Origin: Chloroflexota bacterium
GTDB taxonomy: Bacteria; Chloroflexota; Anaerolineae; Anaerolineales; Anaerolineaceae
Direction: 5' to 3'
NCBI GenBank assembly: GCA_012522475.1
Contig: JAAYKH010000005.1
Location: 1-45,354, forward strand
DNA: 45,354 nucleotides
The notes under the pieces were generated by a model. That model was not told the DNA's origin and did not search any database. It saw only the letters and a list, made by a program, of their open reading frames with translations. Made by a program: the position numbers and the translations under genes. This document shows positions 10,709-26,071 of the stretch, one piece after another; position 1 is the stretch's first letter; the number at the start of each line of letters is the position of its first letter.

Positions 10709-10722
10709 AGAACGTATGTTCT
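10709..10722. promoter_or_regulatory. SOS-box-like operator (LexA-type palindrome)
   Basis: AGAACGTATGTTCT, a 14-bp inverted repeat built around GAAC-GTAT-GTTC. It fits the GAAC-N4-GTTC form of the Gram-positive LexA box, including the purine/pyrimidine preference in the spacer. It lies 110 bp upstream of the first gene of the phage-like run and 10 bp downstream of a candidate minus-strand -10 box. The identical 14 bp recur at 26027-26040. Confidence 0.65.
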
Positions 10723-10732
10723 GATTGATTGT

Positions 10733-10761
10733 ATGATAGCAGGGAATGGGGGCAGATACAA
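10733..10761 (-). promoter_or_regulatory. Candidate promoter of the phage-like run
   Basis: On the minus strand TTGTAT (10756-10761) and TATCAT (10733-10738) are 17 bp apart. Transcription would start near or within the SOS-box palindrome, so a bound LexA would block it. The -35 box is a weak match. Confidence 0.5.
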
Positions 10762-10835
10762 TCCGTCAAAAGCGGCGGGTTTGGGGGCAAAACTTGCCGC
10801 TTGCGGCATAAAACACGCAAAAGCGCCCTGCCCCC

Positions 10836-11186
10836 TGTCATCGCGCGTACAACCCCTTGTCATCGCGAGTTTACGAAGCGATCTCCGGTGCCACCTCTTG
10901 TCATCGCGAGTTTGCGAAGCGATCCCCACTTTCACGTTACAGAGATTGCTTCACTTCGTTCGCAATGACAACGGCGCAAGCCTGTCATCGCGAGTTTGCG
11001 AAGCGATCTCTACTTTCACGTTACAGAGATTGCTTCACTTCGTTCGCAATGACAACGGCGCAAGCCTGTCATCGCGAGTTTACGAAGCGATCTCTACTTC
11101 CACGCTGCTGAGATTGCTTCACTTCGTTCGCAATGACAACAGCGTAAGCCTGTCATAGCGACTCCCCAAGGGGACGACGCGATCTC
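10836..11186. repeat. Palindromic 72-bp repeats, left array, first block
   Basis: Three full units (10899-10970, 10983-11054, 11067-11138) plus partial units at 10836, 10858 and 11151. Each unit starts TGTCATCGCGAG and ends TTCGCAATGACA, and the halves are an imperfect inverted repeat (GAAGCGATCTC against GAGATTGCTTC). The 12-bp linkers are nearly identical (acggcgcaagcc type), giving an 84-bp period. The block lies directly upstream of the SOS-box promoter. Confidence 0.9.
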
Positions 11187-11640
11187 CAGCCGTAGGGTGC
11201 GGTCTGTTTGTGACCGCACCAGAATAAAACGCCGGTCGACGCGCCCTTCGTGACCCACCCCCTTGCCCCCTCCCTGAAGGAAGGGGGAATATCGATCGAA
11301 ATCTTGAAAACTTGCCCTACAAAAGAAGACCGTAGGGTGTGGTCTGGTTGCGGCCACACCACCATAAAAATGGTGGGTTCAAATGCGGAACCCACCCTAC
11401 AAAAAAGGCACACCAAACGGATCGATACATATAAAAGACTGCCATCGATTCACCCTCTGCACCCACTGTGCTTTGCTCCGCGGCCCTGCGGGAGGAAGGG
11501 GGAATGTCGTTCGAAATTTTGAAAAACCGCTTCCCCTTTCGCACAACGTAAAGCCCTCCCTTTAGGGAGGGTTGGGGTGGGTCTAATCGTGAACACCTGA
11601 AGAGCCGCACCCCGCGGCCTGGTTGCAACCGCACCAGAAT
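11187..11640. repeat. Mixed short palindromic repeats, no gene
   Basis: This stretch separates the two blocks of the left array. It holds several other hairpin-forming repeats: a GGTGCGGTC...GACCGCACC type (11199-11221, and a degenerate copy near 11600-11632), a GGTGTGGTC...GCCACACC copy (11335-11360), GGTGGGTTC...GAACCCACC (11371-11397), and a CCTCCCT...AGGGAGG hairpin (11555-11571). Two GGAAGGGGGAAT segments (from 11278 and 11495) are also similar. I see no gene; short open frames here are made by the repeats. Confidence 0.7.
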
Positions 11641-11707
11641 AAAACGAATCAACGCGTACTTTACGAAGAAAAGATCGTCAACGATTTCCCCTCTCTGCCT
11701 ATGCCCC

Positions 11708-12597
11708 TGTCATCGCGAGCTTACGACGCGATCTCCAGTGCCACCTTTTGTCATCGCGAGCTTGCGAAGCGATCTCCACTTCCACGCCGCAGAGATTGCT
11801 TCACTTCGTTCGCAATGACAACGGCGCAAGCCTGTCATCGCGAGTTTACGAAGCGATCTCTACTTCCACGCCGTAGAGATTGCTTCACTTTGTTCGCAAT
11901 GACAACGCGTTCCACCTGTCATCATGAGCTTGCGAAGCGATCTCTACTCCCACACCACAGAGATTGCTTCACTTTGTTCGCAATGACAACAGCGTAAGCC
12001 TGTCATCGCGAGTTTACGAAGCGATCCCCACTTTCACGTTACAGAGATTGCTTCACTTCGTTCGCAATGACAGCGGCGAATGTGTCATCACGAGCTTGCG
12101 AAGTGATCTCCAGTATCACGCTCTTGAGATTGCTTCACTTCGTTCGCAATGACAACGGCAAATATGTCATCGCGAGTTTACGAAGCGATCTCTACTTCCA
12201 CACCGCTGAGATTGCTTCACTTCGTTCGCAATGACAACGGCGTAAGCCTGGCATCATGAGCTTACGACGCGATCTCTACTTCCACGCTACAGAGATTGCT
12301 TCACTTCGTTCGCAATGACAAGGGCGTAAGCCTGTCATCGCGAGCTTGCGAAGTGATCTCCACTTCCACGCCACAGAGATTGCTTCACTTCGTGCGCAAT
12401 GACAAGGGCGTATGTGTCATCGCGAGTTTACGAAGCGATCTCCACTTTCACGCCACAGAGATTGCTTCACTTCGTTCGCAATGACAACGGCGTAAGCCTG
12501 TCATCGCGAGTTTACGAAGCGATCTCTACTTTCACGCTGCTGAGATTGCTTCACTTCGTTCGCAATGACAGCACGTTTCATTTGTCATCGCGAGACG
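11708..12597. repeat. Palindromic 72-bp repeats, left array, second block
   Basis: Ten full 72-bp units: 11749-11820, 11833-11904, 11917-11988, 12001-12072, 12083-12154, 12165-12236, 12249-12320, 12333-12404, 12415-12486 and 12499-12570, with partial units at 11708 and about 12583. The period is 82 or 84 bp. The same unit forms the array at 18.53 kb. Because 84 is a multiple of three, long open frames with repeated peptides such as CHREFAKRS and IASLRSQ arise here; they are not genes. Confidence 0.93.
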
Positions 12598-12613
12598 CAG
12601 CAACGCTCAGCCC

Positions 12614-12644
12614 TTGCCAAACAACCCCTCGCGCATGATATAAT
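12614..12644 (+). promoter_or_regulatory. Candidate hsdR promoter
   Basis: TTGCCA (12614-12619) and a perfect TATAAT (12639-12644), 19 bp apart, immediately after the last repeat fragment. The start codon of hsdR is 35 bp downstream of the -10 box. Confidence 0.5.
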
Positions 12645-12678
12645 TAATTTGATATTTAACACAAGGGGCAAAGCCGCC

Positions 12679-15195
12679 ATGACTGAAGCAACCGCACGCA
12701 TAAAAATTAACTGGATGCTGGAAAAAGCCGGCTGGCGCTTTTTCGATTCACCTGAAGGCCCTGCTAACATCATCTTAGAAGGCAAGGCGTCTCTTAAAAA
12801 GGCTGATCTGGACACCCTGGGCGAAAATTTTGAGAAAACCGCGGTGGGGTATATCGACTTCCTTTTGCTCGATGAACATGGCTTCCCTTTTATCGTGCTG
12901 GAGGCCAAACGCGAGGAAAAATCCCCCCTGGACGGTAAAGAGCAGGCGCGCGCCTATGCCCGCTCGCAAAATGTGCGCTTTGTGATCCTTTCCAACGGCA
13001 ACCTGCACTATTTTTGGGACCTTGAGCGCGGCAACCCCGAGGTGATTACCGAATTTCCCCGGATCGATTCCGTCAAACACCGCACCCGGTTCAAGCCCAG
13101 CCCCAAAGCACTGGCACGTGAACCGGTGGGCGAAGATTATGTCGCCCAGTCGCAGTTGCCGGGGTTTGAAAAGGATCCCCGCTGGATGGACCAAAATCAG
13201 CGCCCGCAATTTATTGCCGACCAGGGCCTGCGTGTTCTGCGCAAATACCAGCTGGCAGCGGTCCACGCCCTGCAAAGAAGCGCCGGGGCGGATAACGACC
13301 GCTTTCTGTTTGAAATGGCCACCGGTACCGGGAAAACCCTGATAGCAGCTGCGGTCATCAAGCTGTTTTTACGCACCGGCAATGCCCGGCGGGTTCTTTT
13401 TTTGGTCGACCGCATCGAACTGGAAAACCAGGCTTATAAGAATTTTGACCAGCTGCTTAAAAAAGACTACCAGACCGTCATCTACAAGGAAAACCGGCAG
13501 GACTGGCGCAAAGCGGAGATTGTAGTTACCACCGTGCAATCTCTCGAGTTTGATAACAAGTACATGCGCCTGTTCTCGCCCACCGATTTTGACCTGATTA
13601 TCTCTGATGAGGCCCACCGCTCGATCAACGGCAACAGCCGGGCGGTGTTTGAGTACTTTGTGGGCTATAAATTGGGGCTGACTGCCACACCCAAGGACTA
13701 TATTAAAAACATCGACCCCGCCACCCTCAGCCAGCGCGACCCGCGCGCCTGGGAGCGCCGCCAACTGCTGGATACCTACAAGACCTTCGGCTGTGAGCAG
13801 GGCGAGCCCACCTTCCGCTACTCCCTGGTGGATGGCGTCCGCGATGGCTACCTGGTGAACCCCGTGGTGGTCGATGCCCGCACCGAGATCACCACCCAGC
13901 TCCTTTCCGAACAGGGCTATGCCGTTATGGTGCCTAACGAGGAGGGCGAAGAAGAAGAGCAGGTCTTCTATCAGCGCAATTTTGAGCGCACCTTTTTCTC
14001 GGATTTGACCAACCTGCAATTATGCCGGACCTTCCTGGCCCACGCCCTGCGCGACCCCTTCAGCGGGGAAATCGGCAAGTCGATTGTGTTTTGCGTCAGC
14101 CAGGACCATGCCTCTCGGGTGACGCAGCTCTTGAACGAGCTGGCCGATAAGCACTTCCCGGGCCGGTACAGCTCGGACTTTGCCGTGCAGGTGACCTCTA
14201 ATATTCCCGGCGCACAGGGCTACAGCATCAGTTTTGCCAACAACAACCTGAACGGGCATACCCGCTTTTTGGATGGCTATAAAACCAGCAAAACGCGCGT
14301 GTGCGTTACCGTGGGGATGATGACCACCGGCTATGATTGCCAGGATATCCTCAACCTGGCGATGATGCGCCCGATCTTCTCGCCCACGGATTTTATTCAG
14401 ATTAAAGGGCGCGGTACCCGCCGCTGGACTTTTAAATATCAGTACAGGGGCGCCAACCGGTTGGAAGAAGAACGGGTAGAAAAAGAGAACTTCAAGCTGT
14501 TCGACTTTTTTGCCAATTACGAGTACTTCGAAGAGAAATTTAACTACGATGAGGTGCTTAAACTGCCCTTGCAGTACGCGGGCAGCCCCGGCGCTGAAAG
14601 CGAACCCGGCGTTCACGATACCGTTTCGGTTGACGACTACGACCCTGAAAAGTCGGTAAGGCACATCCTCATCGGGCGGGACGGCATGAAGATTGACCGC
14701 AAGCTGTTTGAACGTTTCTCTAAACCCGTTTTGGATGACCACGCCTTAAGGCGCGCCGTGGAAAACCAGCAGTGGGACCTTGCCGTGCAGATGCTGCGGG
14801 AAAATTACGCCAATCGGCCTGAAGATTACGTTACGATTGAGAAGTTGATTCAATCTGAAGGGCTGGATCGGCGGCTGACCTGGAAGGAAGTGCTCATGCG
14901 CATTTTCGGCCTGATTGACCGTTTTAAGACTCGCGATGAGCTGCTCGATGAGGAATTTCAGAAATTCGTCGCCATCAACAAGCCCGACCCGGAACAGGCG
15001 CTGCGCATTAAAAACTTCATGCACGCATACCTGACCGATGATGAAATCCGGCAGATCATCGATGCCGGCAACTACCCCGCACTGGCCAGCAACCCCAAGC
15101 TTTCGCTGAGCGACCTGCAAGCCCTGGGCGAGTGGTTGGCCCGTGTGCCGGTGTATATCAAGGATTATATTTCTATCAACACCTATTTAACCTGA
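12679..15195 (+). CDS. hsdR: Type I restriction enzyme, R subunit
   Basis: 838 residues. The N-terminal nuclease has the PD-(D/E)xK pattern with Asp60 in GYIDF and Glu75-x-Lys77 in VLEAK. The SF2 translocase follows: Walker A ATGTGKT (about residues 214-220), DEAH (about 310), motif III GLTATP and the late QIKGRGTRR. The C-terminal region with LDEEFQKFVA is of the EcoEI type. Type I R subunits pull DNA towards the complex and cut at distant sites when foreign DNA lacks methylation. I start at 12679; the longer frame back to 12565 reads through a repeat unit. A 15-bp gap leads to the modification gene. All catalytic motifs look intact. Confidence 0.93.
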   Translation: MTEATARIKINWMLEKAGWRFFDSPEGPANIILEGKASLKKADLDTLGENFEKTAVGYIDFLLLDEHGFPFIVLEAKREEKSPLDGKEQARAYARSQNVRFVILSNGNLHYFWDLERGNPEVITEFPRIDSVKHRTRFKPSPKALAREPVGEDYVAQSQLPGFEKDPRWMDQNQRPQFIADQGLRVLRKYQLAAVHALQRSAGADNDRFLFEMATGTGKTLIAAAVIKLFLRTGNARRVLFLVDRIELENQAYKNFDQLLKKDYQTVIYKENRQDWRKAEIVVTTVQSLEFDNKYMRLFSPTDFDLIISDEAHRSINGNSRAVFEYFVGYKLGLTATPKDYIKNIDPATLSQRDPRAWERRQLLDTYKTFGCEQGEPTFRYSLVDGVRDGYLVNPVVVDARTEITTQLLSEQGYAVMVPNEEGEEEEQVFYQRNFERTFFSDLTNLQLCRTFLAHALRDPFSGEIGKSIVFCVSQDHASRVTQLLNELADKHFPGRYSSDFAVQVTSNIPGAQGYSISFANNNLNGHTRFLDGYKTSKTRVCVTVGMMTTGYDCQDILNLAMMRPIFSPTDFIQIKGRGTRRWTFKYQYRGANRLEEERVEKENFKLFDFFANYEYFEEKFNYDEVLKLPLQYAGSPGAESEPGVHDTVSVDDYDPEKSVRHILIGRDGMKIDRKLFERFSKPVLDDHALRRAVENQQWDLAVQMLRENYANRPEDYVTIEKLIQSEGLDRRLTWKEVLMRIFGLIDRFKTRDELLDEEFQKFVAINKPDPEQALRIKNFMHAYLTDDEIRQIIDAGNYPALASNPKLSLSDLQALGEWLARVPVYIKDYISINTYLT

Positions 15196-15210
15196 CGTAT
15201 AAGGATTTCC

Positions 15211-17634
15211 ATGCTCAACGCTGACACCAAACGCCGTATCGACAACGCCCGCGATATCCTGGTTGGCAAGGTGCCCGACCCTAAAACCCAGGTGGAACAG
15301 ATCACCTTTGCCATGATCTACAAGTTTATGGACGATATGGACCAGCTTTCGCTGCGCCTGGGCGGCAAGGCCTCTTTTTTCAATAATGGCTACGAGGGCT
15401 TTGCCTGGTCGAAACTGATGGATATAAAGCTCTCTGGCATCCAACGACTGGATTTGTACGTGCGGGCGCTGGAGGGCATGTCGAACAACCCCTTCATCCC
15501 CCAGCTGTTCCGCGATGTGTTCAAGGGCGCCTTTTTGCCCTACCGCGACAGCGAAACCCTGAACCTGTTCCTGAAGGAGATGGACGGCTTTACCTACGAT
15601 CACAGCGAAGCCCTGGGCGACGCCTACGAGTACCTGCTTTCCATCTTCGCCACCCAGGGCAAAGCCGGGCAGTTTCGCACGCCGCGCCACATCATCGACT
15701 TCATCGTTGACTGCGTAGACCCCGGCCTGCACGACAGCGTGCTGGACCCGGCCTGCGGCACGGCCGGCTTTTTAATCTCGGCTTATAAGCATATAACCGA
15801 GAAATACCGCGATAACCCGCTGACCCCCGACCAGAAGCAAGGGTTGACGGAAAACTTCGTGGGCTATGACATCTCGCCCGATATGGTGCGCCTGTCGCGC
15901 GTCAATATGTATTTGCACCAGTTCCCCAACCCCACCATCCACGAATACGACACGCTTACCACCGAAGACCGCTGGGACGAGACCTTCGACGTGATTTTGG
16001 CCAACCCGCCCTTCATGACGCCCAAGGGCGGCATCCGCCCGCACAAACGTTTTGCCGTGCGCGCCAACCGCTCGGAGGTGCTGTTTGTGGATTACATCGC
16101 CGAGCACCTGAACGTGGGCGGCCGGGCGGGGGTGATCGTGCCGGAGGGGATTATCTTCCAGTCGAGCAACGCCTACAAAGCCCTGCGCAAAATGCTGGTG
16201 GAGGAGGGCTACCTGTACGCAGTGATCTCGCTGCCGGCGGGGGTGTTCAACCCCTACAGCGGCGTGAAGACCAGTATTTTACTGCTGGATAAAGACCTGG
16301 CGCGCCGGGCAGAGCGTATTTTGTTTGTGAAGGTGGAACAGGACGGCTACGACCTGGGCGCCCAGCGGCGGGAAATTGAGCAGGACGACCTGCCCGAAGC
16401 GCTGGCGGCGATTAAAGCCTTTCAGGCCGAGCCAGCCGCAGAGCCGGAAAACAGCGCGCGGGCCTGGACGGTTGAAAAGACGCGCCTGGGCGAGGACGGC
16501 GACTACAACCTGAGCGGGGAGCGCTACCGCCAAGTGGTGTTGGTGAGCCAAAAATGGCCAATGGTGAAATTAGGGGATGTTACTAACATGTATCAACCAA
16601 AAACAATTACCTCAAGGGAAATACAGAAGTCAGGCCCTTATAAAGTATTTGGTGCTAATGGTGTAATCGGATTTTTTAATGATTATAACCATGAAGATGA
16701 GGAGGTTCTAATTACATGTAGGGGAGCTACTTGTGGAAAAATAAATATGTCGGAACCTAAATCATGGATTACTGGAAATGCGATGGTGGTAACACCAAAA
16801 GATAAAAACACGTTGTTAAAAAACTTTCTGTATTTTTTACTACAATTCTCCAATTTACATTTAATGATATCTGGTTCTGCACAACCACAAATAACCAGGA
16901 AATCTCTTAATGCTTTTGTTATTCCTCTTCCACCTTTAGATGTCCAGCAAGAGATCGTGGACGAGATCGAGGGCTACCAGAAGGTCATCGACGGGGCGCG
17001 CCAGGTGGTCGAAAACTACAAGCCCGTCATCCCCATCGACCCGGACTGGCCGCTGGTCAAGCTGGGGGAGGTGTGTGAGGTAAAAGGTGGAAAAAGAGTT
17101 CCAAAGGGCATGTCATTTAGTCAAGAGAAAACAAAATACCCTTATTTGCGGGTTACTGACTTTAAAAATTTTGGGGTGGATACAACTAATTTAAGGTTTG
17201 TAGATGAGAAAGTATTCGAAAAAATAAAGCAATATACCATATCATCTGAAGATGTTTTTATTTCAATAGCAGGCACAATTGGTATAGTTGGTACAATTGA
17301 TCCTGAATTAGATGGCGCAAATCTTACAGAAAATGCTGCAAAAATTGTTATTGAGAATAAAAAGGAAATTGACAAGCATTTCTTGGTTTATTGTTTAGCA
17401 TCCACATTTGTGCAACAACAGATTATTAAATTTACGCATGCAGTCGGAGTGCCAAAGCTAGCTTTATTTCGAATTAAAGATTTAATAATACCACTGGCAT
17501 CAGTTGAAGATCAAAAACTAATTGTTGATGGAATAAGCAAAGAAAATCAGATAATTAATTGCAATCAGTTACTTATAGAACGCTTTGAAGCCAAAATTGC
17601 CGCCCGCATCCAATCTGTGTGGGGGGCGGGGTAG
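15211..17634 (+). CDS. Type I HsdM-HsdS fusion (adenine methyltransferase plus specificity subunit)
   Basis: 807 residues. Residues 1-440 are an N6-adenine methyltransferase: HsdM-type N-terminal helices, SAM site DPACGTAGF (from Asp179) and catalytic NPPF (from Asn265). From about residue 450 comes an HsdS with two target-recognition domains, each opening WP-V-KLG-V, and a central spacer helix (QQEIVDEIEGYQKVIDGARQ). M and S are normally separate proteins; here one chain carries both. The methyltransferase and spacer DNA are GC-rich, while both recognition domains (16560-16940 and 17080-17590) are AT-rich, as expected after domain exchange. AAGGATT lies before the ATG. With hsdR it forms a complete system; the target sequence cannot be read from the protein. 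Confidence 0.92.
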   Translation: MLNADTKRRIDNARDILVGKVPDPKTQVEQITFAMIYKFMDDMDQLSLRLGGKASFFNNGYEGFAWSKLMDIKLSGIQRLDLYVRALEGMSNNPFIPQLFRDVFKGAFLPYRDSETLNLFLKEMDGFTYDHSEALGDAYEYLLSIFATQGKAGQFRTPRHIIDFIVDCVDPGLHDSVLDPACGTAGFLISAYKHITEKYRDNPLTPDQKQGLTENFVGYDISPDMVRLSRVNMYLHQFPNPTIHEYDTLTTEDRWDETFDVILANPPFMTPKGGIRPHKRFAVRANRSEVLFVDYIAEHLNVGGRAGVIVPEGIIFQSSNAYKALRKMLVEEGYLYAVISLPAGVFNPYSGVKTSILLLDKDLARRAERILFVKVEQDGYDLGAQRREIEQDDLPEALAAIKAFQAEPAAEPENSARAWTVEKTRLGEDGDYNLSGERYRQVVLVSQKWPMVKLGDVTNMYQPKTITSREIQKSGPYKVFGANGVIGFFNDYNHEDEEVLITCRGATCGKINMSEPKSWITGNAMVVTPKDKNTLLKNFLYFLLQFSNLHLMISGSAQPQITRKSLNAFVIPLPPLDVQQEIVDEIEGYQKVIDGARQVVENYKPVIPIDPDWPLVKLGEVCEVKGGKRVPKGMSFSQEKTKYPYLRVTDFKNFGVDTTNLRFVDEKVFEKIKQYTISSEDVFISIAGTIGIVGTIDPELDGANLTENAAKIVIENKKEIDKHFLVYCLASTFVQQQIIKFTHAVGVPKLALFRIKDLIIPLASVEDQKLIVDGISKENQIINCNQLLIERFEAKIAARIQSVWGAG

Positions 17635-17642
17635 GGTATCGA

Positions 17643-18245
17643 ATGTTGAATGATAGATTTGGCTTTGAAAACGCTATACCGCAAAATCTCCGTGAAAGTT
17701 TTATGTGGCTATGTCAAGACCTTGCTGATTTAGTAACAACTTGGGATTTTTATAAAGACTTATTTGAAAACAAACAAGATAGGGATCTCCTTGAAAAATA
17801 TCTACTCTTCTCAGTCTTTATCATTGAAGAAGCTTTAATGGTTTCAATCACTATGGCAATTTGCCGTTTAAACGACCCTGAAGAACAACAGAAAAATCGG
17901 AATTTATCTTTCGAAGTGCTTGTTAAAGAATGTCCCGATATTCAAGGTCTGGATGATCTTTACAAAAACTTTAAAAACGCGTGTGAACCTTTTAGTCTTC
18001 ATCGTAACAAACGCTTTGGACACCGCGATAGGAAAACAATACTGGGCGACACAGATGAAACCTTGCCAAATATTAGAAAAAAAGAAATAGAAGAAGTCAT
18101 TGATTTGGCAACCCAGATATTAAATTTAGTAGGCTCATATTTTTCTGAATATGAGTGGTGTTTTGTTTCCTCCTCATGTGGCGGTGCAAAAACTCTTTTG
18201 TACTGGTTCAAAAAGGGGTTGGAGAGTCGGCATTTAATTAATTGA
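17643..18245 (+). CDS. HEPN/AbiU2-like protein, possible abortive-infection RNase
   Basis: About 200 residues, all-helical and AT-rich. The segment SLHRNKRFGHRDRKTI holds Arg121-x5-His127, which fits the R-x4-6-H motif of HEPN ribonucleases, and the HRD-K pattern resembles the AbiU2 group. HEPN proteins of defence islands cleave RNA when triggered. I start at the ATG at 17643, just after the hsdMS stop (8 bp), with a weak AGGG site 8 bases upstream; a GTG at 17619 would overlap hsdMS. Base composition matches the AT-rich recognition domains rather than hsdR. No antitoxin is visible beside it. The HEPN call is from the motif and helices only. Confidence 0.55.
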   Translation: MLNDRFGFENAIPQNLRESFMWLCQDLADLVTTWDFYKDLFENKQDRDLLEKYLLFSVFIIEEALMVSITMAICRLNDPEEQQKNRNLSFEVLVKECPDIQGLDDLYKNFKNACEPFSLHRNKRFGHRDRKTILGDTDETLPNIRKKEIEEVIDLATQILNLVGSYFSEYEWCFVSSSCGGAKTLLYWFKKGLESRHLIN

Positions 18246-18530: not shown

Positions 18531-18880
18531 TGTCATCGCGAGTCCCCGAAGGGGACGAAGCGATCCCCACTTCCACACTGTAGAGATTGCTTCACTTCGT
18601 TCGCAATGACAAGGGCGTCTGTCATCGCGAGCTCCATAGGGACGAAGCGATCTCTAGTGCCACCTCTTGTCATCGCGAGCCTGCGAAGCGATCCCCACTT
18701 CCACGCTGTAGAGATTGCTTCACTTTGTTCGCAATGACAACGCGTTCCACCTGTCATCGTGAGCCCCGAAGGGGACGAAGCGATCCCCATTTCCACGCTG
18801 TAGAGATTGCTTCACTTCGTTCGCAATGACAAGGGCGACTGTGTCATCGCGGGTCCCCAAAGGGGACGAAGCGATCACAT
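18531..18880. repeat. Palindromic repeats, right array
   Basis: Three full units of the same family as the left array, in the same orientation: 18531-18611, 18668-18739 and 18752-18831, with partial units at 18620 and 18842. Two full units and the last partial one carry an extra inner hairpin (CCCCGAAGGGG or a variant) that lengthens them to about 80 bp. The array closes the stretch that contains the restriction system and the HEPN-like gene. Confidence 0.9.
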
Positions 18881-18942
18881 ATTTCCACCAGGGGTTGCTT
18901 CTCTCCGCTGCGCCCGGTTGCAATAACCGGTAACCGAATCAC

Positions 18943-18975: not shown

Positions 18976-19001
18976 ACGGGTGTTTTATAACGCGATCGGG
19001 G

Positions 19002-19252: not shown

Positions 19253-19356
19253 AACGTCTCCTTAGTTAATCAGTATCCGGTTTTTTAAAAGTCTTGGGTT
19301 ATTATAGCCCATCCCCGGGGGTCTGAAAAGCACGGCGCGCCTCCGCCGGGGGTTGA

Positions 19357-19384
19357 TTGCAATCTGTGCAAAACCTAAGATAAT
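19357..19384 (+). promoter_or_regulatory. Candidate promoter of the ECF sigma gene
   Basis: TTGCAA (19357-19362) and GATAAT (19379-19384), 16 bp apart, 93 bp before the start codon. Confidence 0.4.
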
Positions 19385-19477
19385 TAAGCTAACCCGGCGC
19401 CGCAGGCAAGGGTGTTAATCTTAAAACCGTCATGTTTGGGCAGGTTTTACGTTATACAGGTTAGAAGAGGATGCTTT

Positions 19478-20005
19478 ATGGATGTTCAAAGCCAGGCACC
19501 ACACATTTTTGATGAGGAAACTTTGATTGCTTTATATGATGATCACAGCGATTCAATCTATCGGTACGCCTTCCGCTCTTTGGGCGAAGCAAACCTGGCG
19601 GAAGATTGTGTTGCCGATGTGTTCACCCGCTTTTTGGAACGGGTGGCCACGGGTAAAGCGCTGACCGGCAATCTCAGGGCTTACCTTTATCGGGTTGCGC
19701 ACAACTGGATTGTGGATTATTACCGCCAGGAAAAACCAGAAGCAGACCTGGAAGCCCAGCCCCTGCCGGCGCGCAATGCGAACCCTGAAAAACACCTCTC
19801 TGAAAAGGAAAACCAGGCCCACCTGCGCCAGGCCCTGCTGGCATTGCCGGAAGACCAGCGGTTGGTGATTGAGCTACGGGTGATGGAAAAATGGCCTTAC
19901 GAAGCGGTGGCCGATGTTTTGGGTAAATCGGTTGAAGCCAGCCGGGCTTTACAATACCGCGCCCTTAAAAAATTACGACAATCCTTTAACCTCCAATGGA
20001 TGTGA
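19478..20005 (+). CDS. ECF-type sigma-70 factor
   Basis: 175 residues from the ATG at 19478, where AGAGGATG gives a ribosome site; an upstream in-frame ATG at 19412 lacks one. Region 2 is seen in YRYAFRSLGEANLAEDCVADVF and LRAYLYRVAHNWIVDYYR, and region 4 in LLALPEDQRLVIELR and EAVADVLGKSVEASRALQYRALKKLR. There is no sigma region 1 or 3, as expected for an ECF factor. It ends three bases before the next gene, a membrane protein that probably controls it. ECF factors direct RNA polymerase to a small regulon after an envelope or stress signal. Confidence 0.92.
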   Translation: MDVQSQAPHIFDEETLIALYDDHSDSIYRYAFRSLGEANLAEDCVADVFTRFLERVATGKALTGNLRAYLYRVAHNWIVDYYRQEKPEADLEAQPLPARNANPEKHLSEKENQAHLRQALLALPEDQRLVIELRVMEKWPYEAVADVLGKSVEASRALQYRALKKLRQSFNLQWM

Positions 20006-20008
20006 ACC

Positions 20009-21721
20009 ATGTATAAAAAGAACGACCACCCGATGACCGATGCCGAGCTGGAAGGCCTGCTGGCTGAACTAAGCCAGGTGCCGCAGCGCAATCCGGATAA
20101 CGCTGCCCGGACGAAAGCCCGGTATTTAATCGCTGTGGGGAAAAGCCTGCAGGCGAGTACAACCGAACAAACAATAAAAACGAGACGAAAAAAGGAGTTC
20201 AGGGAAATGAAACCCTTCTTTAAGAAATTTTCACTGGCTTTTACGCTGGCCGCTGTTTTACTGGTCTTCCTGCTGGGCGGGCTGGGGGTAACCGCGGCCG
20301 CCGCCTCGAGCGCGCTGCCCGGCGACCCATTGTACGGGGTAAAAACCGGGTGGGAGCAAACGCGGCTTCAACTGACCAGGCAGGACTTCAAAAAGGTAGA
20401 GCTTAACCTGGCCTATGCCCAGAACCGACTGGATGAAATTGAAACGTTAATCGCGGCAGAGCGTCTGGGCGATTTAGAAGCCTCCGTGCAGGCCTATGAA
20501 ACCTATATCTTGGAAGCGCTGGCCGGGCTGGAAGCCATTCGCAGCAACAGCATGGCGGTCGATTCCCAGCTGGATCGTGCCATAACGGCCTCCCTGGGAA
20601 AATACACCGCCGACCTGGAGACTCTCTCCAATCGTGTGCAGACCCAGCGAAGGACGCGGTTCGATGAAGCGATTCTGTTTTCAAAATCGGCCGGCGCCTA
20701 TCATGGGAAGATTGAATTCGTCGGCACGGTTAACGCGATCAACCCGGACCTGTGGGTCGTTTCCGGGCTTGAGGTGATCATCACCGCGTCAACGGAAATT
20801 GAAATGGGGATTGATGTTGGTCAACAGGTGGAAGTCGAAGGTTGGGTGGACGCCCTGGGCAGTATTTACGCCCGGGAGATTGAACACGAAGCGGATGGAC
20901 GGGCTTTCAGCCTGAACGGGAAGGGCGAATTTTTGGGCATCGTCAACGAAATCCAACCCGATTACTGGGTGGTCAACGGCATTCGTTTCGAAGTCTCAGC
21001 CACGGCCAGGATTGAACCCGGCATCAGGGTGGGCGATTTCGTTGAGGTTGAATTTGTGCGCAACGATAAGGATGAATATATCTTGCGGGAAGCAGAATTC
21101 GCGTTTGATGACGATGAATATGTTGGCAGCGTCGACGAAATCCACACCGAATACTGGGTGATTGACGGCCTGCGTTTCGAGCTTTTGCCAAAATCGAGGA
21201 TTGAAAAGGGCATCAAGGTCGGCGACTTTGTTGAGGTGGAATTTGTGCGCAACGCGTCCGGCGAAAACTATTTGCTGGAGGTTGAATTTGCCGACAGCGA
21301 AATCTACGGCGTGGCTGACGAAATCAACACCGATCACTGGATCGTCAACGGTATCCGCTGTGAAGTGCTGCCAAATACAAAGAGTGAACCCGGCATCAAG
21401 GTCGGCGATTACGTCGAGGTGGAATTTGTGCGCAACCAGGCTGGTGAGTACATCCTGCTGGATGTTGAACACGAAGATGCTTACAATAGCTCTGATGCTG
21501 GCTACGGCCATCATCGACACGGCGGCGATGATGATGAAATGGTTGGCTTTGTGGACGAAATCCATTCCGATTACTGGGTTATTAATGGTATTCGCTTCAA
21601 CCTCCTGCCGAAATCTGAAATAGAGTGGGGGCTTAAAGTGGGTGATTTTGTTGAGGTTGAATTTTTCAAAAACAGCGCCGGGGCATATTTCTTGCTGGAG
21701 GTTGAACACGAAGATGATTGA
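20009..21721 (+). CDS. Membrane-anchored DUF5667-type protein with five DUF5666-like repeats
   Basis: 570 residues. Residues 1-65 are polar and should lie in the cytoplasm. One membrane helix follows (about 70-95, LAFTLAAVLLVFLLGGLG), then an AAAASSALPGDPLYGVK junction and helical region typical of DUF5667. From about residue 230 there are five tandem repeats of 60-65 residues, each with the core G-V-EI--DYWV-NGIRFE-----IE-GI-VGDFVEVEF, resembling DUF5666. Position three bases after the sigma gene, with a short cytoplasmic tail, suggests an anti-sigma or sensor role, but no zinc-binding anti-sigma motif is present. The linker before the last repeat is His/Asp-rich (GHHRHGGDDDE) and could bind metal. 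Confidence 0.82.
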   Translation: MYKKNDHPMTDAELEGLLAELSQVPQRNPDNAARTKARYLIAVGKSLQASTTEQTIKTRRKKEFREMKPFFKKFSLAFTLAAVLLVFLLGGLGVTAAAASSALPGDPLYGVKTGWEQTRLQLTRQDFKKVELNLAYAQNRLDEIETLIAAERLGDLEASVQAYETYILEALAGLEAIRSNSMAVDSQLDRAITASLGKYTADLETLSNRVQTQRRTRFDEAILFSKSAGAYHGKIEFVGTVNAINPDLWVVSGLEVIITASTEIEMGIDVGQQVEVEGWVDALGSIYAREIEHEADGRAFSLNGKGEFLGIVNEIQPDYWVVNGIRFEVSATARIEPGIRVGDFVEVEFVRNDKDEYILREAEFAFDDDEYVGSVDEIHTEYWVIDGLRFELLPKSRIEKGIKVGDFVEVEFVRNASGENYLLEVEFADSEIYGVADEINTDHWIVNGIRCEVLPNTKSEPGIKVGDYVEVEFVRNQAGEYILLDVEHEDAYNSSDAGYGHHRHGGDDDEMVGFVDEIHSDYWVINGIRFNLLPKSEIEWGLKVGDFVEVEFFKNSAGAYFLLEVEHEDD

Positions 21722-21815
21722 CCCCCGCCGTGCGAATGGCGCTGATTAGACATCCCTTGTCGAATTTAGCTTTATCAGCGCCGTAGACGTAAGCGGCTAA
21801 CCCAGCATTAAACTA

Positions 21816-21842
21816 AAAACCCACCTCAAAGGTGGGTTTTTT
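21816..21842 (+). terminator. Rho-independent terminator of the sigma operon
   Basis: Stem ACCCACCT / AGGTGGGT with a 3-base loop, flanked by AAAA and followed by six T. Confidence 0.85.
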
Positions 21843-21886
21843 GATGTCGGTCAAGGGGGCTGTTTTCAGACCAGTGATCGTCGCCT

Positions 21887-23392
21887 TCAAGCTGGCTCAG
21901 CGGGCAGGCTGGCCATCTCCTGAAGATAGGCGATATAAAAGCTGACCATCCTGGCGGAATTTTCGAAAGAAAGGCGCTCGTTGACAGCGTGCACGCGCTG
22001 GATATCGGTTGGATCGTAAACAATCGGCGAAAAGCGGAAGGCGTTTTCGGTCACCGGGGCGTAGTGGCGGGCATCGGTACCGCCCACCACCAGGTAAGGC
22101 GCCGTCAGCGCCCCGGGGAACGCCTCTTGCACGAGCCGGGCCAGCCCGATGAAATAGGGCGATTCAGCATCGGCCACAGGCGAAGGATCCCAGCCCGACG
22201 TACCTTCCAGCAGATCGCCCTCAAAGGGCAACACGCTGACGCGGTCATCGTTGATGCGTTCCTGCACCATTTGATACACCGAGGCCATGTCATCCCCGGG
22301 CAGCAGGCGGAAGTTGACCACGGCTTCTGCACGGGCGGGCAAGACGTTATCCTTGACGCCGGCGTTAATCATGGTTGGTGCGGTGGTGGTACGCAAGCTG
22401 GCGTTCATCACGTTCGATTGGGCCAATTGCTTCTTAACGATTCCGCCGAATAACCAGGTGTTGGCCAGGGCCATCCTCTGGATGAAGGGCAGCGCCGACC
22501 CGAGATAGCTCATCATAAACTCAACCACTTCAAGGCGCGCGGGCAGTGGGCGGGCTTCCAGCCTGGCAATCGCCCTGGAAAGGATACCGATGGCCGTTTC
22601 TGGCGCCGGTATGGACGAGTGCCCGCCATCCTGATTCACGGTTAACCGCAGGCTCAGGTAGCCTTTTTCCGAGATGCCAATCAATCCTAAGGGTGCGTCA
22701 ATGCCTGCTAAAACCCCTTCGTAAACGGCCCCGCCTTCATCCAGCAAGCAGCCAACCTGGACGCCGCGGCTTTTCAGCAGGTCGGCAATTGCCGCCGCGC
22801 CGTGTTGGCCGCTGATTTCCTCATCGTGGCCAAAGCCCAGAAAAACCGTCCGCTCGGGTTGAAAACCCTCTTTGAGCAGGTGCTCAACCGCTTCAAAAAT
22901 GCCGATCACGGCGCTTTTCATGTCCAGTGCGCCCCGCCCCCACACGAAGCCATCGGCCAGTTCGCCGCTGAAGGGCGGATACTCCCAGGCCGGGTCGTCC
23001 TCATCTGCCGGGACGACGTCCAAATGCCCGATGAGCATGACGGGCTCCAGGTCGGGGTCGGTTCCCGCCCAGGTGTACAACAGGCTGTAGTCGTTAATCG
23101 TTTCGTATTTCAACTGCTTGTGCACCGCGGGGTAAAGCGTCTGAAACAGTCGATGCAGTCCCAAAAAGGCAGACCCATCAATTTTTTTCGGGTCATTGTC
23201 CGAAATGGTCTTGTACTGAATGGCCAAACCCAGCCGCTCGGCAATAGACTTTCTGTCCACCAACAAAAATTCACGCGGCGTAACGTTCTTTTGCGGCGGT
23301 GAAAACAGGGCTGTTTTTAGAATAACAAAGCCAGCCAGGAATAAAACCAGCGCCAGTAAACCAATTCCTATTGATATAAAAAGCGTTCCCAT
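21887..23392 (-). CDS. M20-family metallopeptidase (carboxypeptidase S type)
   Basis: 501 residues from the ATG at 23392, preceded by GAGGAG; an upstream in-frame ATG at 23446 is not supported. One N-terminal membrane helix (about residues 3-27) anchors the enzyme. The two-zinc site is visible: LIGHLDVVP (His, Asp), GRGALDMKS (bridging Asp), GFGHDEEISG (catalytic Glu-Glu), LLDEGG and the late GGTDARHYAP (His). Length and the membrane anchor fit the yeast Cps1-like group, which removes C-terminal residues from peptides or hydrolyses N-acyl amino acids. The catalytic domain should face outwards. It stands alone, so the substrate is unknown. Confidence 0.9.
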   Translation of the reverse strand: MGTLFISIGIGLLALVLFLAGFVILKTALFSPPQKNVTPREFLLVDRKSIAERLGLAIQYKTISDNDPKKIDGSAFLGLHRLFQTLYPAVHKQLKYETINDYSLLYTWAGTDPDLEPVMLIGHLDVVPADEDDPAWEYPPFSGELADGFVWGRGALDMKSAVIGIFEAVEHLLKEGFQPERTVFLGFGHDEEISGQHGAAAIADLLKSRGVQVGCLLDEGGAVYEGVLAGIDAPLGLIGISEKGYLSLRLTVNQDGGHSSIPAPETAIGILSRAIARLEARPLPARLEVVEFMMSYLGSALPFIQRMALANTWLFGGIVKKQLAQSNVMNASLRTTTAPTMINAGVKDNVLPARAEAVVNFRLLPGDDMASVYQMVQERINDDRVSVLPFEGDLLEGTSGWDPSPVADAESPYFIGLARLVQEAFPGALTAPYLVVGGTDARHYAPVTENAFRFSPIVYDPTDIQRVHAVNERLSFENSARMVSFYIAYLQEMASLPAEPA

Positions 23393-23528
23393 GTAGATTT
23401 TGCTCCTCTCGATACAACGGCAGGGGGTTGTCAGGCACATTTTCATCAGGGTTGCCGTGCGTCTGTGTGGATTGCAGGCCGTCTGAAAATGATTTTGACG
23501 TCAAAGACAGTGAATGAATTTGAATAAA

Positions 23529-23534
23529 ATTATA
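23529..23534 (-). promoter_or_regulatory. Possible -10 box of the M20 peptidase gene
   Basis: TATAAT on the minus strand in an AT-rich stretch, 137 bp before the start codon; no strong -35 box. Confidence 0.3.
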
Positions 23535-23582
23535 TCACCAGGCGCATCATTTTACAGATTGTGTTTTGGCTGACTGATGGGC

Positions 23583-23610
23583 TTGAAAAGCATTCGAAGT
23601 ATGGGATAAT
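23583..23610 (+). promoter_or_regulatory. Candidate promoter of the DUF4261-like gene
   Basis: TTGAAA (23583-23588) and GATAAT (23605-23610), 16 bp apart, about 30 bp before the ATG. Confidence 0.5.
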
Positions 23611-23640
23611 CAAAGCAACCACGACCTTTGGACCCTATCC

Positions 23641-24462
23641 ATGACGGAGACCCTCATTCACCCCCCCAGCAGGCGCCCTATTGTACACCTGATTTACGCC
23701 CAAGATCGGTTGCCCGCCCCCAACAAAACGGCCTTGCAGCGCTGCCTTGGCAACAGCGGCGCTGAAAACGGGTCGCCGGGCGGCGTGGATTGGGCGCAAC
23801 AGGATCCCCAGAAACACGTCGGCAGGGTCACCTTTGCAGGTCACCAGTTGCACATTGCCGGTCTGCCCATCCCCCTGCCGTGTGAAATCATCGATCACAC
23901 CGTGATGGTTTCACCCTGGTCGGGGCAGATCAAAGCTGCCATGCGCCAGCACCGGGCCCACATCAGCCTGGTTTACGCTCAGGGCAGCCCGAACCCCATC
24001 GAGCAGATGGTCGCCCTTTACAGCCTGGCCTGCGCTTTTTCGAATGAAGACCTGTTGGGGGTTGTCAACGCCAATGCCTGGACCGCCCATCCCCCGGCTG
24101 ATTTTCTGGAACCCGCCCAGATTGCCAGTTATCGCCGCGACATCCCTTTCAACCTGTGGTTTGGGTATGTGCGTTTTTTCACCGATGCACAAACTTTCTG
24201 GCTGGCGACCAAGGGGCACCACATCTTCGATGTTCCCGACCTGGCCTACCAGGTTGACCCGGACGAAGACCCGGATGAGGTCATCCGCCTGTTTATGAAT
24301 GTCTTTCATTATTTATATGAACAGGATGTATTTGTGACTGCCGGGGATACGCTCGAGATCAGCGGTACAGGGCAAACCCTGGTCTTTGCAGAAGTAACTG
24401 AACTGGAAGATGTATTGATGGGCCCTTCCGGCACCCTGGTTTTAAAGAAGGCCGTTACTTAA
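23641..24462 (+). CDS. DUF4261-like protein of unknown function
   Basis: 273 residues, soluble. The first part (IVHLIYAQDRLPAP) is followed by a core with AHISLVYAQGSPNPIEQMVA and LLGVVNANAWT, then a C-terminal strand region (FWLATKGHHIFDVPDLAYQ) and an acidic stretch. This order resembles DUF4261 proteins, whose role is not known. No catalytic motif is visible. The ribosome site is weak (GGA). Its stop codon overlaps by 4 bp the end of the convergent phosphatase gene. Confidence 0.65.
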   Translation: MTETLIHPPSRRPIVHLIYAQDRLPAPNKTALQRCLGNSGAENGSPGGVDWAQQDPQKHVGRVTFAGHQLHIAGLPIPLPCEIIDHTVMVSPWSGQIKAAMRQHRAHISLVYAQGSPNPIEQMVALYSLACAFSNEDLLGVVNANAWTAHPPADFLEPAQIASYRRDIPFNLWFGYVRFFTDAQTFWLATKGHHIFDVPDLAYQVDPDEDPDEVIRLFMNVFHYLYEQDVFVTAGDTLEISGTGQTLVFAEVTELEDVLMGPSGTLVLKKAVT

Positions 24463-24971
24463 TTTCCAACCCTGTTGAAATCGAGTACGAATTGATACTG
24501 CAGTCCATTTTCAACCGCGGTGGGGATGAATTGACGCACCCAGGCAATTGCATCTTCCGCGGCAAGCTTAAAAACCACGCTCGCCAGGCTGGCGGTTAGA
24601 ATCCCGGTGCGGCCGATGCCGGCATGGCAGTGAATCGCGACGGTCTGTCCCGCCCGGGCGGCTGCCAGGGTCCCCTCCAGCGCGGCTTGCAACACCTCGG
24701 GCTGGAACACGCCAAAATCGGGCGCGGGCGCATGGATGACCGCATAGCCAAGCTGACGGTAATGGGCAAGCAGATCCTGCCCGGTCAACCTATACAACTC
24801 CTCGGTTTCATTCAACACGACAATGGTATCTACACCGTGCCGGGCAAAGGCCGGCAAAATTTGCCCCCGCGGGTCAAACATGGGGCTGAAGGGCAGGGGA
24901 CTGCGGTAGATCCTTCCTGCCAGGTTGTAGGGGAGTTCAATCAACCCCGGGTGAATCATCGGTGTCTTCAA
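24459..24971 (-). CDS. Dual-specificity/tyrosine phosphatase-like protein
   Basis: 170 residues with the phosphatase signature HCHAGIGRTG (His114, catalytic Cys115, Arg121). Asp85 in APAPDFG is well placed as the general acid. The small size and the DTIVVLNET strand fit the dual-specificity or cyclin-phosphatase fold. The start is TTG at 24971, supported by GAGGT 7 bases upstream; an ATG at 24959 is too far from that site. Substrates could be phosphoproteins, phosphoinositides or nucleotides; the sequence does not decide. Confidence 0.85.
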   Translation of the reverse strand: MKTPMIHPGLIELPYNLAGRIYRSPLPFSPMFDPRGQILPAFARHGVDTIVVLNETEELYRLTGQDLLAHYRQLGYAVIHAPAPDFGVFQPEVLQAALEGTLAAARAGQTVAIHCHAGIGRTGILTASLASVVFKLAAEDAIAWVRQFIPTAVENGLQYQFVLDFNRVGN

Positions 24972-25122
24972 GGTTTACCTCATCGGCAATCATCTAAAAC
25001 CAGAGCGCGGTTGGCTCCAGGTGCAATCAACTTGCTCAGAACATATTATACGCGCTGCAACACCAAGTAGAGGGCTTTTCACCGGTGGCTATCAACTGTG
25101 TCAACAGCGCCGTTAGCGCTTG

Positions 25123-25139
25123 TGTTTATTAAATAAACA
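25123..25139. promoter_or_regulatory. Palindromic candidate operator before the ferredoxin gene
   Basis: A perfect 17-bp palindrome, TGTTTATT-A-AATAAACA, just upstream of the -35 region of the ferredoxin promoter. A second short inverted repeat, AGCGC-cgtta-GCGCT, precedes it (25106-25120). The 7-1-7 layout is like that of Fur-family sites, but the bases are not the Fur consensus. Confidence 0.4.
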
Positions 25140-25161
25140 TACTGGTTATTAAATCAGCTTG

Positions 25162-25170
25162 TGGTATAAT
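25162..25170 (+). promoter_or_regulatory. Extended -10 promoter of the ferredoxin gene
   Basis: TGGTATAAT, an extended -10 box with a perfect TATAAT (25165-25170). The -35 region is poor, as is common with extended -10 promoters. The untranslated leader would be about 85 bases. Confidence 0.6.
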
Positions 25171-25261
25171 TTCGCTGGATTAAATCCGAGTGTACTTTAC
25201 AAACGGGGTTGAAAGCACGCCCGTTAAAAATAAAAACTAACCATTTATTAGGAGATAACCG

Positions 25262-25456
25262 ATGAGAGTTAAAGTAGATCCAGATCTGTGCTTAGGCTGC
25301 GGTATTTGTGAAGGGATCGTTCCCGAGGTCTTCAGTATGGCCAATGAGCCTTACGCTGAGGTTCTGCTCGACCCCGTTCCGGAAGAGTATCAGGACGCCG
25401 TCCGGGAAGCAGTGGAAGAATGCCCGGAAGAAGCTATTATCATCATTGAAGAGTAG
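25262..25456 (+). CDS. Single-cluster [4Fe-4S] ferredoxin
   Basis: 64 residues. Cys10, Cys13 and Cys16 (CLGCGIC) and Cys54 (ECPEEAI) bind one [4Fe-4S] cluster; the second cluster motif of clostridial ferredoxins is missing. The very acidic surface is typical of a soluble one-electron carrier. TAGGAG lies 8 bases before the ATG. It is a single-gene unit with its own promoter and terminator, so its redox partners are elsewhere. Confidence 0.93.
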   Translation: MRVKVDPDLCLGCGICEGIVPEVFSMANEPYAEVLLDPVPEEYQDAVREAVEECPEEAIIIIEE

Positions 25457-25481
25457 TTAAACAACCCAGCATGAATAAGCC

Positions 25482-25517
25482 AGAGGCTGCACCACCGGTG
25501 ACAGCCTCTTTGGTTTT
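25482..25517 (+). terminator. Terminator of the ferredoxin gene
   Basis: Stem AGAGGCTG / CAGCCTCT (25482-25489 and 25502-25509) with a 12-base loop, followed by TTGGTTTT. Confidence 0.75.
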
Positions 25518-25596
25518 AATTCAGGCCATTGTCACAGGTGCTTTGAACCTGCTGCGCCTGAAAAACCACACGATGGGCAGCTTACGATCTACTGTT

Positions 25597-26001
25597 TCAT
25601 AATTCAGGTCTGAACAGGCCCAAAGCCACAGCCCGGGCCACCAGCTGCTGGATATTGTGCGCATCCAGACGAGCTTTCATGCTCGCGACATAGCCGCGCA
25701 CCGTGCGCGGCCGCAAACCCAATCGCAGCGCGATCTCGGCGGTGGTAAGCCCGTCCCCCAGGAGGACCAGCACCTGGTATTCACGCCGGCTAAGTTTGGG
25801 CAGCTCGTCTTCCGGCGGCGGCGCAGACTGGGTTACAACCACCACCTCGCCCTGCTGCCGAGCGAATAAAGGCCCCGTTTCATTGGGGAGGTAAGCCTCC
25901 CACTGCCCACGGTTGATCGCGCTGATTATGCGCTCAGCCGGCGCATCCACCTCCAGCACGCCAAAGGTGTCCGGCGCTTTAATGATTAAAACTCTCGTCA
26001 T
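25597..26001 (-). CDS. LuxR-type HTH regulator without a receiver domain
   Basis: 134 residues. Residues about 70-130 are a LuxR/NarL DNA-binding domain (LSRREYQVLVLLGDGLTTAEIA, LRPRTVRGYVASMKARL). The first 65 residues are a small alpha/beta region that is neither a receiver nor an autoinducer domain. AGGAGG lies 8 bases before the ATG. Its promoter is excellent and holds a SOS-box-like palindrome between the -10 box and the gene, identical to the one before the phage-like run at 10.7 kb. That suggests DNA-damage control, or that this protein binds the palindrome itself. Function as a DNA-binding regulator is likely; its targets are inferred. Confidence 0.88.
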   Translation of the reverse strand: MTRVLIIKAPDTFGVLEVDAPAERIISAINRGQWEAYLPNETGPLFARQQGEVVVVTQSAPPPEDELPKLSRREYQVLVLLGDGLTTAEIALRLGLRPRTVRGYVASMKARLDAHNIQQLVARAVALGLFRPEL

Positions 26002-26025
26002 CCAGGCATCCTCCTACGCTAAAAA

Positions 26026-26071
26026 TAGAACGTATGTTCTAATTCTACGCAATTAAGAGGCGCACTGTCAA
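26026..26071 (-). promoter_or_regulatory. Promoter with overlapping SOS-box palindrome
   Basis: On the minus strand TTGACA (26066-26071), an 18-bp spacer, and TAGAAT (26042-26047). Directly after the -10 box comes TAGAACATACGTTCTA (26026-26041), a perfect 16-bp palindrome of the GAAC-N4-GTTC type covering the expected transcription start. A repressor bound here would shut off the LuxR-type gene. Confidence 0.75.

Follow-up and report, generated by a model that had tools for sequence, protein, structure and literature searches.

A shared LexA-type operator at a phage-derived gene cluster and a LuxR-type regulator gene in Anaerolineaceae: a candidate damage-responsive system resembling gene transfer agents

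The palindrome GAAC-N4-GTTC is the SOS box of Bacillus subtilis and other Gram-positive bacteria (PMC4234289), and in Rhodobacter capsulatus the SOS response has been tied to a gene transfer agent (GTA), acting via cckA and CtrA (PMC6473078). A putative LexA site in the promoter of the GTA cluster of Dinoroseobacter shibae was found in silico (PMC6473078), whilst the GTA of Caulobacter is known to have two activators, GafY and GafZ (PMC11150451). Criteria for the recognition of GTAs (viriforms) are given in PMC9662315, where three groups, RcGTA, BaGTA and BhGTA, are evaluated. For LuxR of Vibrio fischeri, the lux box reads ACCTGTAGGATCGTACAGGT (PMC4444344). Here we describe a stretch of 45,354 nucleotides (the window) from a Chloroflexota bacterium of the family Anaerolineaceae (GCA_012522475.1, contig JAAYKH010000005.1), in which one palindrome of the SOS type stands both in front of a phage-derived gene cluster and in front of a gene for a LuxR-type regulator. 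The open-licence literature searched (titles only, preprints excluded) held no title on gene transfer agents in Chloroflexi, Anaerolinea or Chloroflexota, and no description of an SOS regulon in Chloroflexota or Anaerolineaceae was found there either.

The 14-bp palindrome, AGAACGTATGTTCT, occurs at 10709-10722 (site 1) and at 26027-26040 (site 2), as a preliminary description of this DNA had reported, and in exact form nowhere else in the genome (2,255,161 bases, 2.26 Mb, in 89 contigs, 98.6% complete). When up to two mismatches are allowed, the window contains four matches, namely both sites on both strands, whereas 100 shuffles average 0.09. The identical block does run beyond the palindrome, as had been noted, and at 19 bp (AAAATAGAACGTATGTTCT, 10704-10722 and 26022-26040) is slightly longer than first given; 84 repeated 19-mers are not restricted to 10.78-12.6 kb, and the 40 listed all belong either to this block or to an 84-bp repeat family described below. 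On the gene strand both sites read AGAACATACGTTCT, and the genes served by both lie on the minus strand. Site 1 is about 110 bp upstream of the ATG at 10599, in the promoter of a phage-derived run that extends on the minus strand from 10599 to 3929; site 2 is about 25 bp upstream of the ATG of the LuxR-type gene at 26001, one base beyond a TTGACA-18-TAGAAT promoter. The earlier placement of the two copies, including the promoter adjoining the second, was therefore correct. We considered whether site 1 might serve the plus-strand genes after 12.5 kb and dropped the idea: those genes start with a type I restriction system, and the promoter-like elements beside site 1 face the minus strand. The elements concerned are as follows.

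10709-10722, minus strand: predicted LexA operator of the phage-derived cluster (exact match; score of 20.7 with the lexA matrix described below; conserved in relatives)
10733-10761, minus strand: cluster promoter, TTGTAT-17-TATCAT, whose weak -35 is overlapped by the end of a second conserved element (from sequence)
10759-10776, minus strand: conserved element GCCGCTTTTGACGGATTG, part of a lux-box-like dyad and the proposed activator site (motif discovery)
25597-26001, minus strand: LuxR-type (GerE) regulator of 134 aa, the proposed cluster activator (PF00196, E 1.9e-13, 50.2 bits against a cut-off of 23.5)
26027-26040, minus strand: predicted LexA operator of the LuxR-type gene (same 14-mer; box in 11 of 11 same-genus orthologues)
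26042-26071, minus strand: promoter of the LuxR-type gene, TTGACA-18-TAGAAT (sequence and aligned orthologue promoters)

The genome encodes one clear LexA (TIGR00498, 164.4 bits against a cut-off of 110.95, with PF00717 also matched) as well as RecA, and each gene carries the operator. In the lexA promoter the exact core GAACAGATGTTC lies between the -35 and -10 elements of TTGACA-N17-TATTAT (in full, TTGACA-ccGAACAGATGTTCggg-TATTAT), and in the recA promoter GAACATATGTGC, with one mismatch, lies between TTGACC and TAAAAT (in full, TTGACC-agagtGAACATATGTGC-TAAAAT). Further boxes are found in the promoters of genes for an FtsK-like ATPase (in tandem), a 248-aa membrane protein and an SLT transglycosylase. 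Since the same box stands in the lexA, recA and other promoters of the genome, the palindrome is, to judge by its sequence, an ordinary Gram-positive-type LexA (SOS) operator, GAAC-N4-GTTC. Genome-wide counts are uninformative here, because the bare core is barely enriched (23 sites, where the reversed pattern has 19) and the looser RAAC-N4-GTTY not usefully so (178 against 223); the case rests on promoter placement and conservation. Low enrichment of the bare core is what would be expected were the two copies a coincidence or a dispersed repeat. We give that explanation practically no credence, since there are only two exact copies, both at promoters, and the box is independently conserved in relatives with differing N4 letters.

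This conservation was assessed as follows. A lexA box within one mismatch was present at all 30 lexA loci read (28 of them exact; 48 genomes have a lexA match), and a scoring matrix was trained only on the 19 distinct lexA boxes and applied with thresholds of 8 and 12. Among 40 cluster upstream regions (one further locus, L110, had no upstream sequence and was left out), 35 scored at least 8, against 7.7% of 975 control stretches, and 26 scored at least 12, against 1.4% of the controls. A second set comprised 80 loci, of which 29 repeat earlier genomes and six have fewer than 1100 bases upstream; of the 45 new loci scored, 35 reached 8 (7.4% of 779 controls) and 24 reached 12 (1.8%). At the LuxR-type gene the box is found within one mismatch upstream of all 11 full-length same-genus orthologues, this genome included, ten of them exact. 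More distant LuxR homologues reached 8 in 14 of 18 cases, a count without a matched control, with the box mostly directly after a TATAAT-like -10.

Lack of the palindrome at lexA and recA had been named as a finding that would tell against an answer of both loci to LexA; the suggestion is instead strengthened by the boxes at these two genes and by retention of the box at lexA, the LuxR-type gene and the cluster in relatives, and we consider it almost certain, on sequence grounds, that LexA controls both the cluster and the LuxR-type gene. It had also been proposed that the LuxR-type protein itself might bind the palindrome and control the phage-like run. The same 14-mer does stand at both loci, and the LuxR-type gene is on the terL contig in ten of 24 genomes, 5.6-28 kb away, as that proposal would lead one to expect. 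We nevertheless judge binding of the palindrome by this protein very improbable, because lexA and recA, and all 30 lexA promoters read in relatives, carry the same core, and because the cluster promoter contains a different second dyad that was not seen by eye in the LuxR promoters. The other half of the proposal, control of the run by the LuxR-type protein, appears probable, via that different dyad at 10759-10776.

Several of the boxes in this genome and its relatives deserve separate mention. The FtsK-like ATPase gene (281 aa, L406:2795-3637, contig C84), whose Pfam match is below the cut-off, stands behind tandem LexA boxes and keeps them in three (G010, G011 and G012) of five genomes searched; it appears to be a conserved SOS gene and is possibly part of the same system as the cluster. 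The gene for the 248-aa membrane protein (L405:2762-3505, contig C56), which matches no Pfam family, has a LexA box inside its promoter, also present in G011, G012 and G013 among five genomes searched. One exact and one single-mismatch core lie in the promoter of the SLT transglycosylase gene (L029:870-1484, contig C10), and another core, GAACGATTGTTC, is found at L022:1501 (contig C3), immediately behind an integrase-like gene, in DNA that is likely to be mobile. The contig with the title Syntrophobacterales Delta_01 (L277) encodes a TerL of 50% identity with a LexA box upstream, and is perhaps mis-binned Chloroflexota DNA.

Motif discovery in the cluster promoters brought out the second element, which in the window lies 36 bp upstream of the LexA box. 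Most cluster promoters have a weak -35 (TTGNNN), which this element overlaps, and by eye their layout is similar to that of the TTGTAT-17-TATCAT promoter. The element reads GCCGCTTTTGACGGATTG in the genus; the family form approaches AACCTGCC-N4-GGCAGGTT. With L122 and five further loci scoring below 8 left out, 34 promoters gave a motif of 16.5 bits against 7.5-8.1 for shuffled sequences, and in 31 of them the element ends 31-41 bp before the box. In that run the shuffles had fewer restarts than the real set and close relatives were unthinned, which a run with one promoter per genus (17) corrects: this gave 13.9 bits, whereas the stretch 290-400 bp upstream reached 10.1 and the shuffles, which in both runs keep single-base content only, 8.8-9.2. 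A control stretch within terL, being conserved coding sequence, predictably scored higher than the promoters, at 17.6 bits. The lux-box-like dyad is matched at eight or more of ten positions in 12 of the 34 promoters, compared with 1.4% of 16,603 control slots, and two genomes (G032 and G052) match ACCTG-N10-CAGGT at all ten.

The genus form, within two mismatches, occurs once in this genome and is present in 11 of 12 genus genomes, and its reversed control does not occur in any of the 12. Of 23 occurrences, 18 lie 35-38 bp before a LexA box, the other five all being two-mismatch forms. Ten of these 18 are outside the main clusters, as solitary promoters, two of which (G005:C39 and G007:C42) run into a TerS-like frame. 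The solitary promoters (L424, L408, L419, L413, L421, L427, L409, L422, L423 and L428) are spread over G003, G005, G007, G012, G013 and G014, and one solitary cluster promoter is close to a mutL-like gene.

The LuxR-type promoters have the consensus TTGACA and no such element was seen in them by eye. The protein's best match in the PHROG database is phrog_3282, 'sigma factor' (E 1.2e-13). Full-length orthologues, 69-100% identical, are present in 11 of 16 genus genomes; G006 has only a fragment of the gene at a contig end, and no close orthologue was found in G001, G002, G008 and G015. LuxR of V. fischeri has a helix-turn-helix of the GerE type, and a lux box overlapping the -35 is in an activating position. 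Activation of the cluster by the LuxR-type protein, as the sequences suggest, strikes us as somewhat more probable than its opposite.

The genes of the run downstream of site 1 are these.

10231-10599, minus strand: first cluster gene, 122 aa, small-terminase (TerS)-like (label inferred from position and from relatives with a GNTNALKHGFYS-type N-terminus)
9963-10241, minus strand: 92-aa coiled-coil-like protein with a hydrophobic C-terminus, conserved in the cluster
8429-9973, minus strand: large terminase, TerL (PF17289 above cut-off; PHROG terminase families)
7546-8424, minus strand: GH25 lysozyme-like endolysin (PF01183, E 2e-16; PHROG endolysin)
5966-7531, minus strand: portal running, through a deletion, into the mid-part of a later structural gene (portal PHROG, E 2.4e-34)
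5437-5970, minus strand: remainder of the same structural gene in another frame, through a frameshift (homology)
3929-5434, minus strand: tail/baseplate-like protein, 501 aa, carrying a beta-sandwich domain as an insert (structure model with a mean predicted local distance difference test score, pLDDT, of 90.3, and structure matches)

The 122-aa protein, aligned with its relatives (49 sequences), matched no Pfam or PHROG family, and its structure model, all-helical with a pLDDT of 63, was too poor to use. The coiled-coil-like protein has a weak PHROG tape-measure match (E 0.012). Over its whole length the model of the 501-aa protein matches tail and baseplate proteins, among them 8v3w_H (Z 14.6, root-mean-square deviation (rmsd) 3.8, 224 residues aligned) and 3cdd_A (Z 13.0, rmsd 3.8, 215 aligned), and residues 196-364 match 9euj_G (Z 16.8, rmsd 2.4, 151 aligned). 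Foldseek matches of the same model to insecticidal toxins (template modelling score below 0.2) and to a lectin-like domain (below 0.31) were set aside as due to the common beta-sandwich in the insert. Across 40 neighbourhoods the usual order is TerS-like, coiled coil, TerL, GH25, portal, protease-capsid fusion, holin-like, connector-like and two tail-like genes, and the cluster measures about 10 kb. In tblastn comparisons the genes for TerL, portal and capsid occur together in 36 of 41 neighbourhoods, the window included in that number, GH25 in 24 and the family of the 501-aa tail protein in 20. The relatives' capsid matches PF25209 above its cut-off and NCBI prohead protease/capsid fusion models below theirs.

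The relatives, therefore, carry tailed-phage-like head and packaging genes in host genomes; the copy in the window has no capsid. Here homology from 7441 to 6242 is to the portal, and from 6241 to 5966 the unchanged reading frame matches residues 179-269 of the structural protein, so that the capsid, holin-like and connector-like genes are gone, and the structural gene then changes frame near 5966-5970. The operator, promoter and conserved element look intact. The window locus is a broken member of an inherited cluster family, and with its capsid deleted and its structural gene frameshifted it should make no particle.

A search of 151 genomes brought up TerL in 70, of which 66 are among the 91 genomes of the same family (G000-G090) and four among 60 others. 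It is present at a single locus in 64 of the 66; G022 has two full copies and G062 one copy and a fragment. No match listed contains an internal stop. Loci with species or genus titles come from Leptolinea tardivitalis, Levilinea saccharolytica, Ornatilinea apprima, Longilinea arvoryzae, Pelolinea submarina and Brevefilum sp. All three of TerL, portal and capsid are carried by L. tardivitalis YMTK-2, L. saccharolytica KIBI-1 and L. arvoryzae KOME-1. The P. submarina locus (L224) keeps TerL and a LexA-box-like site, and in the matching genome, G061, the neighbourhood showed neither portal nor capsid. Among the five upstream flanking proteins in L. tardivitalis, the one genome inspected for this, no integrase or replication gene was recognised.

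Genus or family labels with at least two members are monophyletic in ten of ten cases for TerL (one with support of 0.21), nine of nine for portal and eight of eight for capsid. The TerL and RpoB trees of 28 genomes have 12 splits in common, against at most three in 500 label permutations. The correlation of distances with those of RpoB is 0.67 for TerL, 0.41 for portal and 0.34 for capsid (for LexA it is 0.84, with 14 common genomes only), which indicates that inheritance is mostly, not strictly, vertical. TerL, portal and capsid are under purifying selection, with a ratio of non-synonymous to synonymous substitution rates (dN/dS), across 29 comparisons, of 0.06-0.25 wherever dS was computable, many dS values exceeding 1; in the two of them without computable dS the corresponding ratio of proportions, pN/pS, was 0.26. 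Against 50,697 phage records, TerL matched one phage (two records, 31.5% identity) and the capsid 61, the best at 25.9% over 93%. When sequences from viral collections were added, several fell inside known genera and are probably host fragments. In the TerL tree a number of IMG/VR 'viral' contigs of 4-9 kb (L295-L298 and others) are placed within the genus of the window, and they resemble host clusters. That this is an inherited, domesticated cluster in Anaerolineaceae is, in our view, highly likely.

How might such a switch work? In an undamaged cell LexA would hold down both the cluster promoter and the promoter of the LuxR-type gene. On DNA damage LexA would be cleaved and the LuxR-type gene, with its near-consensus promoter, expressed; its product would bind the conserved inverted repeat that overlaps the weak -35 of the cluster, from which LexA would be released at the same time. 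The cluster would fire only with both conditions satisfied, an arrangement known as a coherent feed-forward. In relatives with the intact set it would yield capsid, packaging motor, portal, tail-tip proteins, holin and lysozyme, and these could form a particle similar to a gene transfer agent, which lysis would release; in this genome the switch remains. Binding by LexA and by the LuxR-type protein, activation, particle formation and transfer of DNA are steps that we infer, and we regard the account as a whole, from repression of both loci by LexA to a GTA-like particle in intact relatives, as likely. That the intact relatives have a working gene transfer agent seems to us quite possible, if short of probable. 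We put forward only tentatively the fullest version, in which an independently domesticated, minimal GTA lineage in Anaerolineaceae is fired by damage through the LexA and LuxR-type feed-forward, so that damaged cells lyse and share DNA.

A number of observations weigh against this account. No box at threshold was found in five of the 40 and ten of the 45 clusters, among them all three from family f14 (one f14 genome, G140, has an exact box at -1362, beyond the scored stretch), and the pass in G057 is a GC-rich palindrome that may be there by chance. The box is mostly missing among viral-collection relatives, where 12 of 46 loci pass (46 of 80 were scored) against 7.6% of controls, and some of these relatives are mobile, with an integrase in L322 and a primase in L307, the two contigs checked. 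The element of this genome matches the lux-box consensus at seven of ten positions, a level reached by 9% of control slots. No terL match was found in 25 of the 91 family genomes, at least three of the 66 matches are fragmentary or split (fragments in G023 and G079, two frames in G083), and G014 keeps the LuxR-type gene and its box with no terL match. The congruence with RpoB noted above is partial. Apart from the weak coiled-coil match, no tape-measure or tail-tube gene was recognised in family scans of two clusters. Finally, the cluster is decayed here, with no capsid homologue anywhere in the genome, and the capsid is also missing from the neighbourhood in G005, G031, G061 and G077, although G005 and G031 have one elsewhere.

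Many of these points would suit an account in which LexA controls both loci and the cluster is a functionless, decaying prophage remnant, the operator being a leftover of induction and the LuxR gene serving some other purpose. The broken copy in the window, the five neighbourhoods of 41 without capsid, the fragments and scattered solitary promoter pieces in relatives, the existence of related mobile elements and the terL-less G014 could all be so explained. Decay alone does not, however, fit the low dN/dS of TerL, portal and capsid, the absence of stops within the TerL matches listed, the common retention of these three genes, their genus-level monophyly, or the keeping of operator and element across genera, and we consider this account unlikely. 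It is also conceivable that the particle made by intact clusters does not move DNA and instead, for instance, kills relatives or is an empty shell. The shortness of the cluster, its want of a recognised tape measure or tube, and a tail/baseplate-like protein with an added lectin-like domain point in that direction. An empty killing particle would have no need of a packaging motor, however, and TerL, the TerS-like protein, portal and the protease-capsid fusion are kept, with TerL, portal and capsid under purifying selection; we hold this to be distinctly unlikely. The GTA-like reading remains the one that we prefer.

Elsewhere in the window, between the cluster promoter and the restriction genes, an 84-bp repeat (TGTCATCGCGAGTTTGCGAAGCGATCTC...) is present in about three plus ten tandem copies at 10899-12570 and recurs near 18582-18830. 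The type I restriction system occupies 12565-18245, with an HsdR-like gene at 12565-15195 and a fused methylase and specificity protein at 15211-17634, directly followed by an AbiU2/HEPN-like gene.

If intact relatives do make particles, gene exchange in a widespread group of anaerobes would be coupled directly with DNA damage through a single repressor and a single activator, in a system lying outside the three GTA groups that PMC9662315 evaluates. Some short IMG/VR 'viral' contigs would then be explained as inherited host clusters. Named strains with the intact set make the claim testable in culture and, even were the particle dead, there would still be an SOS regulon conserved across several Chloroflexota genera.

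How does the locus compare with the systems introduced above? With the Gram-positive SOS box it has in common the core and its spacing, a box in the lexA promoter and recA in the regulon (PMC4234289), the difference being that here, in Chloroflexota, the box stands in front of an inherited cluster of phage origin and of a LuxR-type gene. In gene set, mostly vertical inheritance and purifying selection the cluster resembles a gene transfer agent, GTAs being endogenous, phage-derived packaging and head genes that are largely inherited with the host (PMC9662315); it differs in belonging to another phylum, in its size of about 10 kb, in having no recognised tape measure or tube, in its regulators and in being known from its genes alone. 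The proposed switch is akin to, though distinct from, that of R. capsulatus, where regulation runs through cckA and CtrA (a CtrA route was not searched for here), whereas in the window the operator stands at the cluster itself and at the LuxR-type gene. The dyad resembles the V. fischeri lux box in its ACCTG-N10-CAGGT-like form overlapping the -35, although it is diverged (at seven of ten positions in this genome) and the 134-aa protein is without a recognised autoinducer-binding domain. As with GafY and GafZ, a dedicated activator would switch on the cluster, the one proposed here being a small GerE-type protein with a predicted LexA operator of its own.

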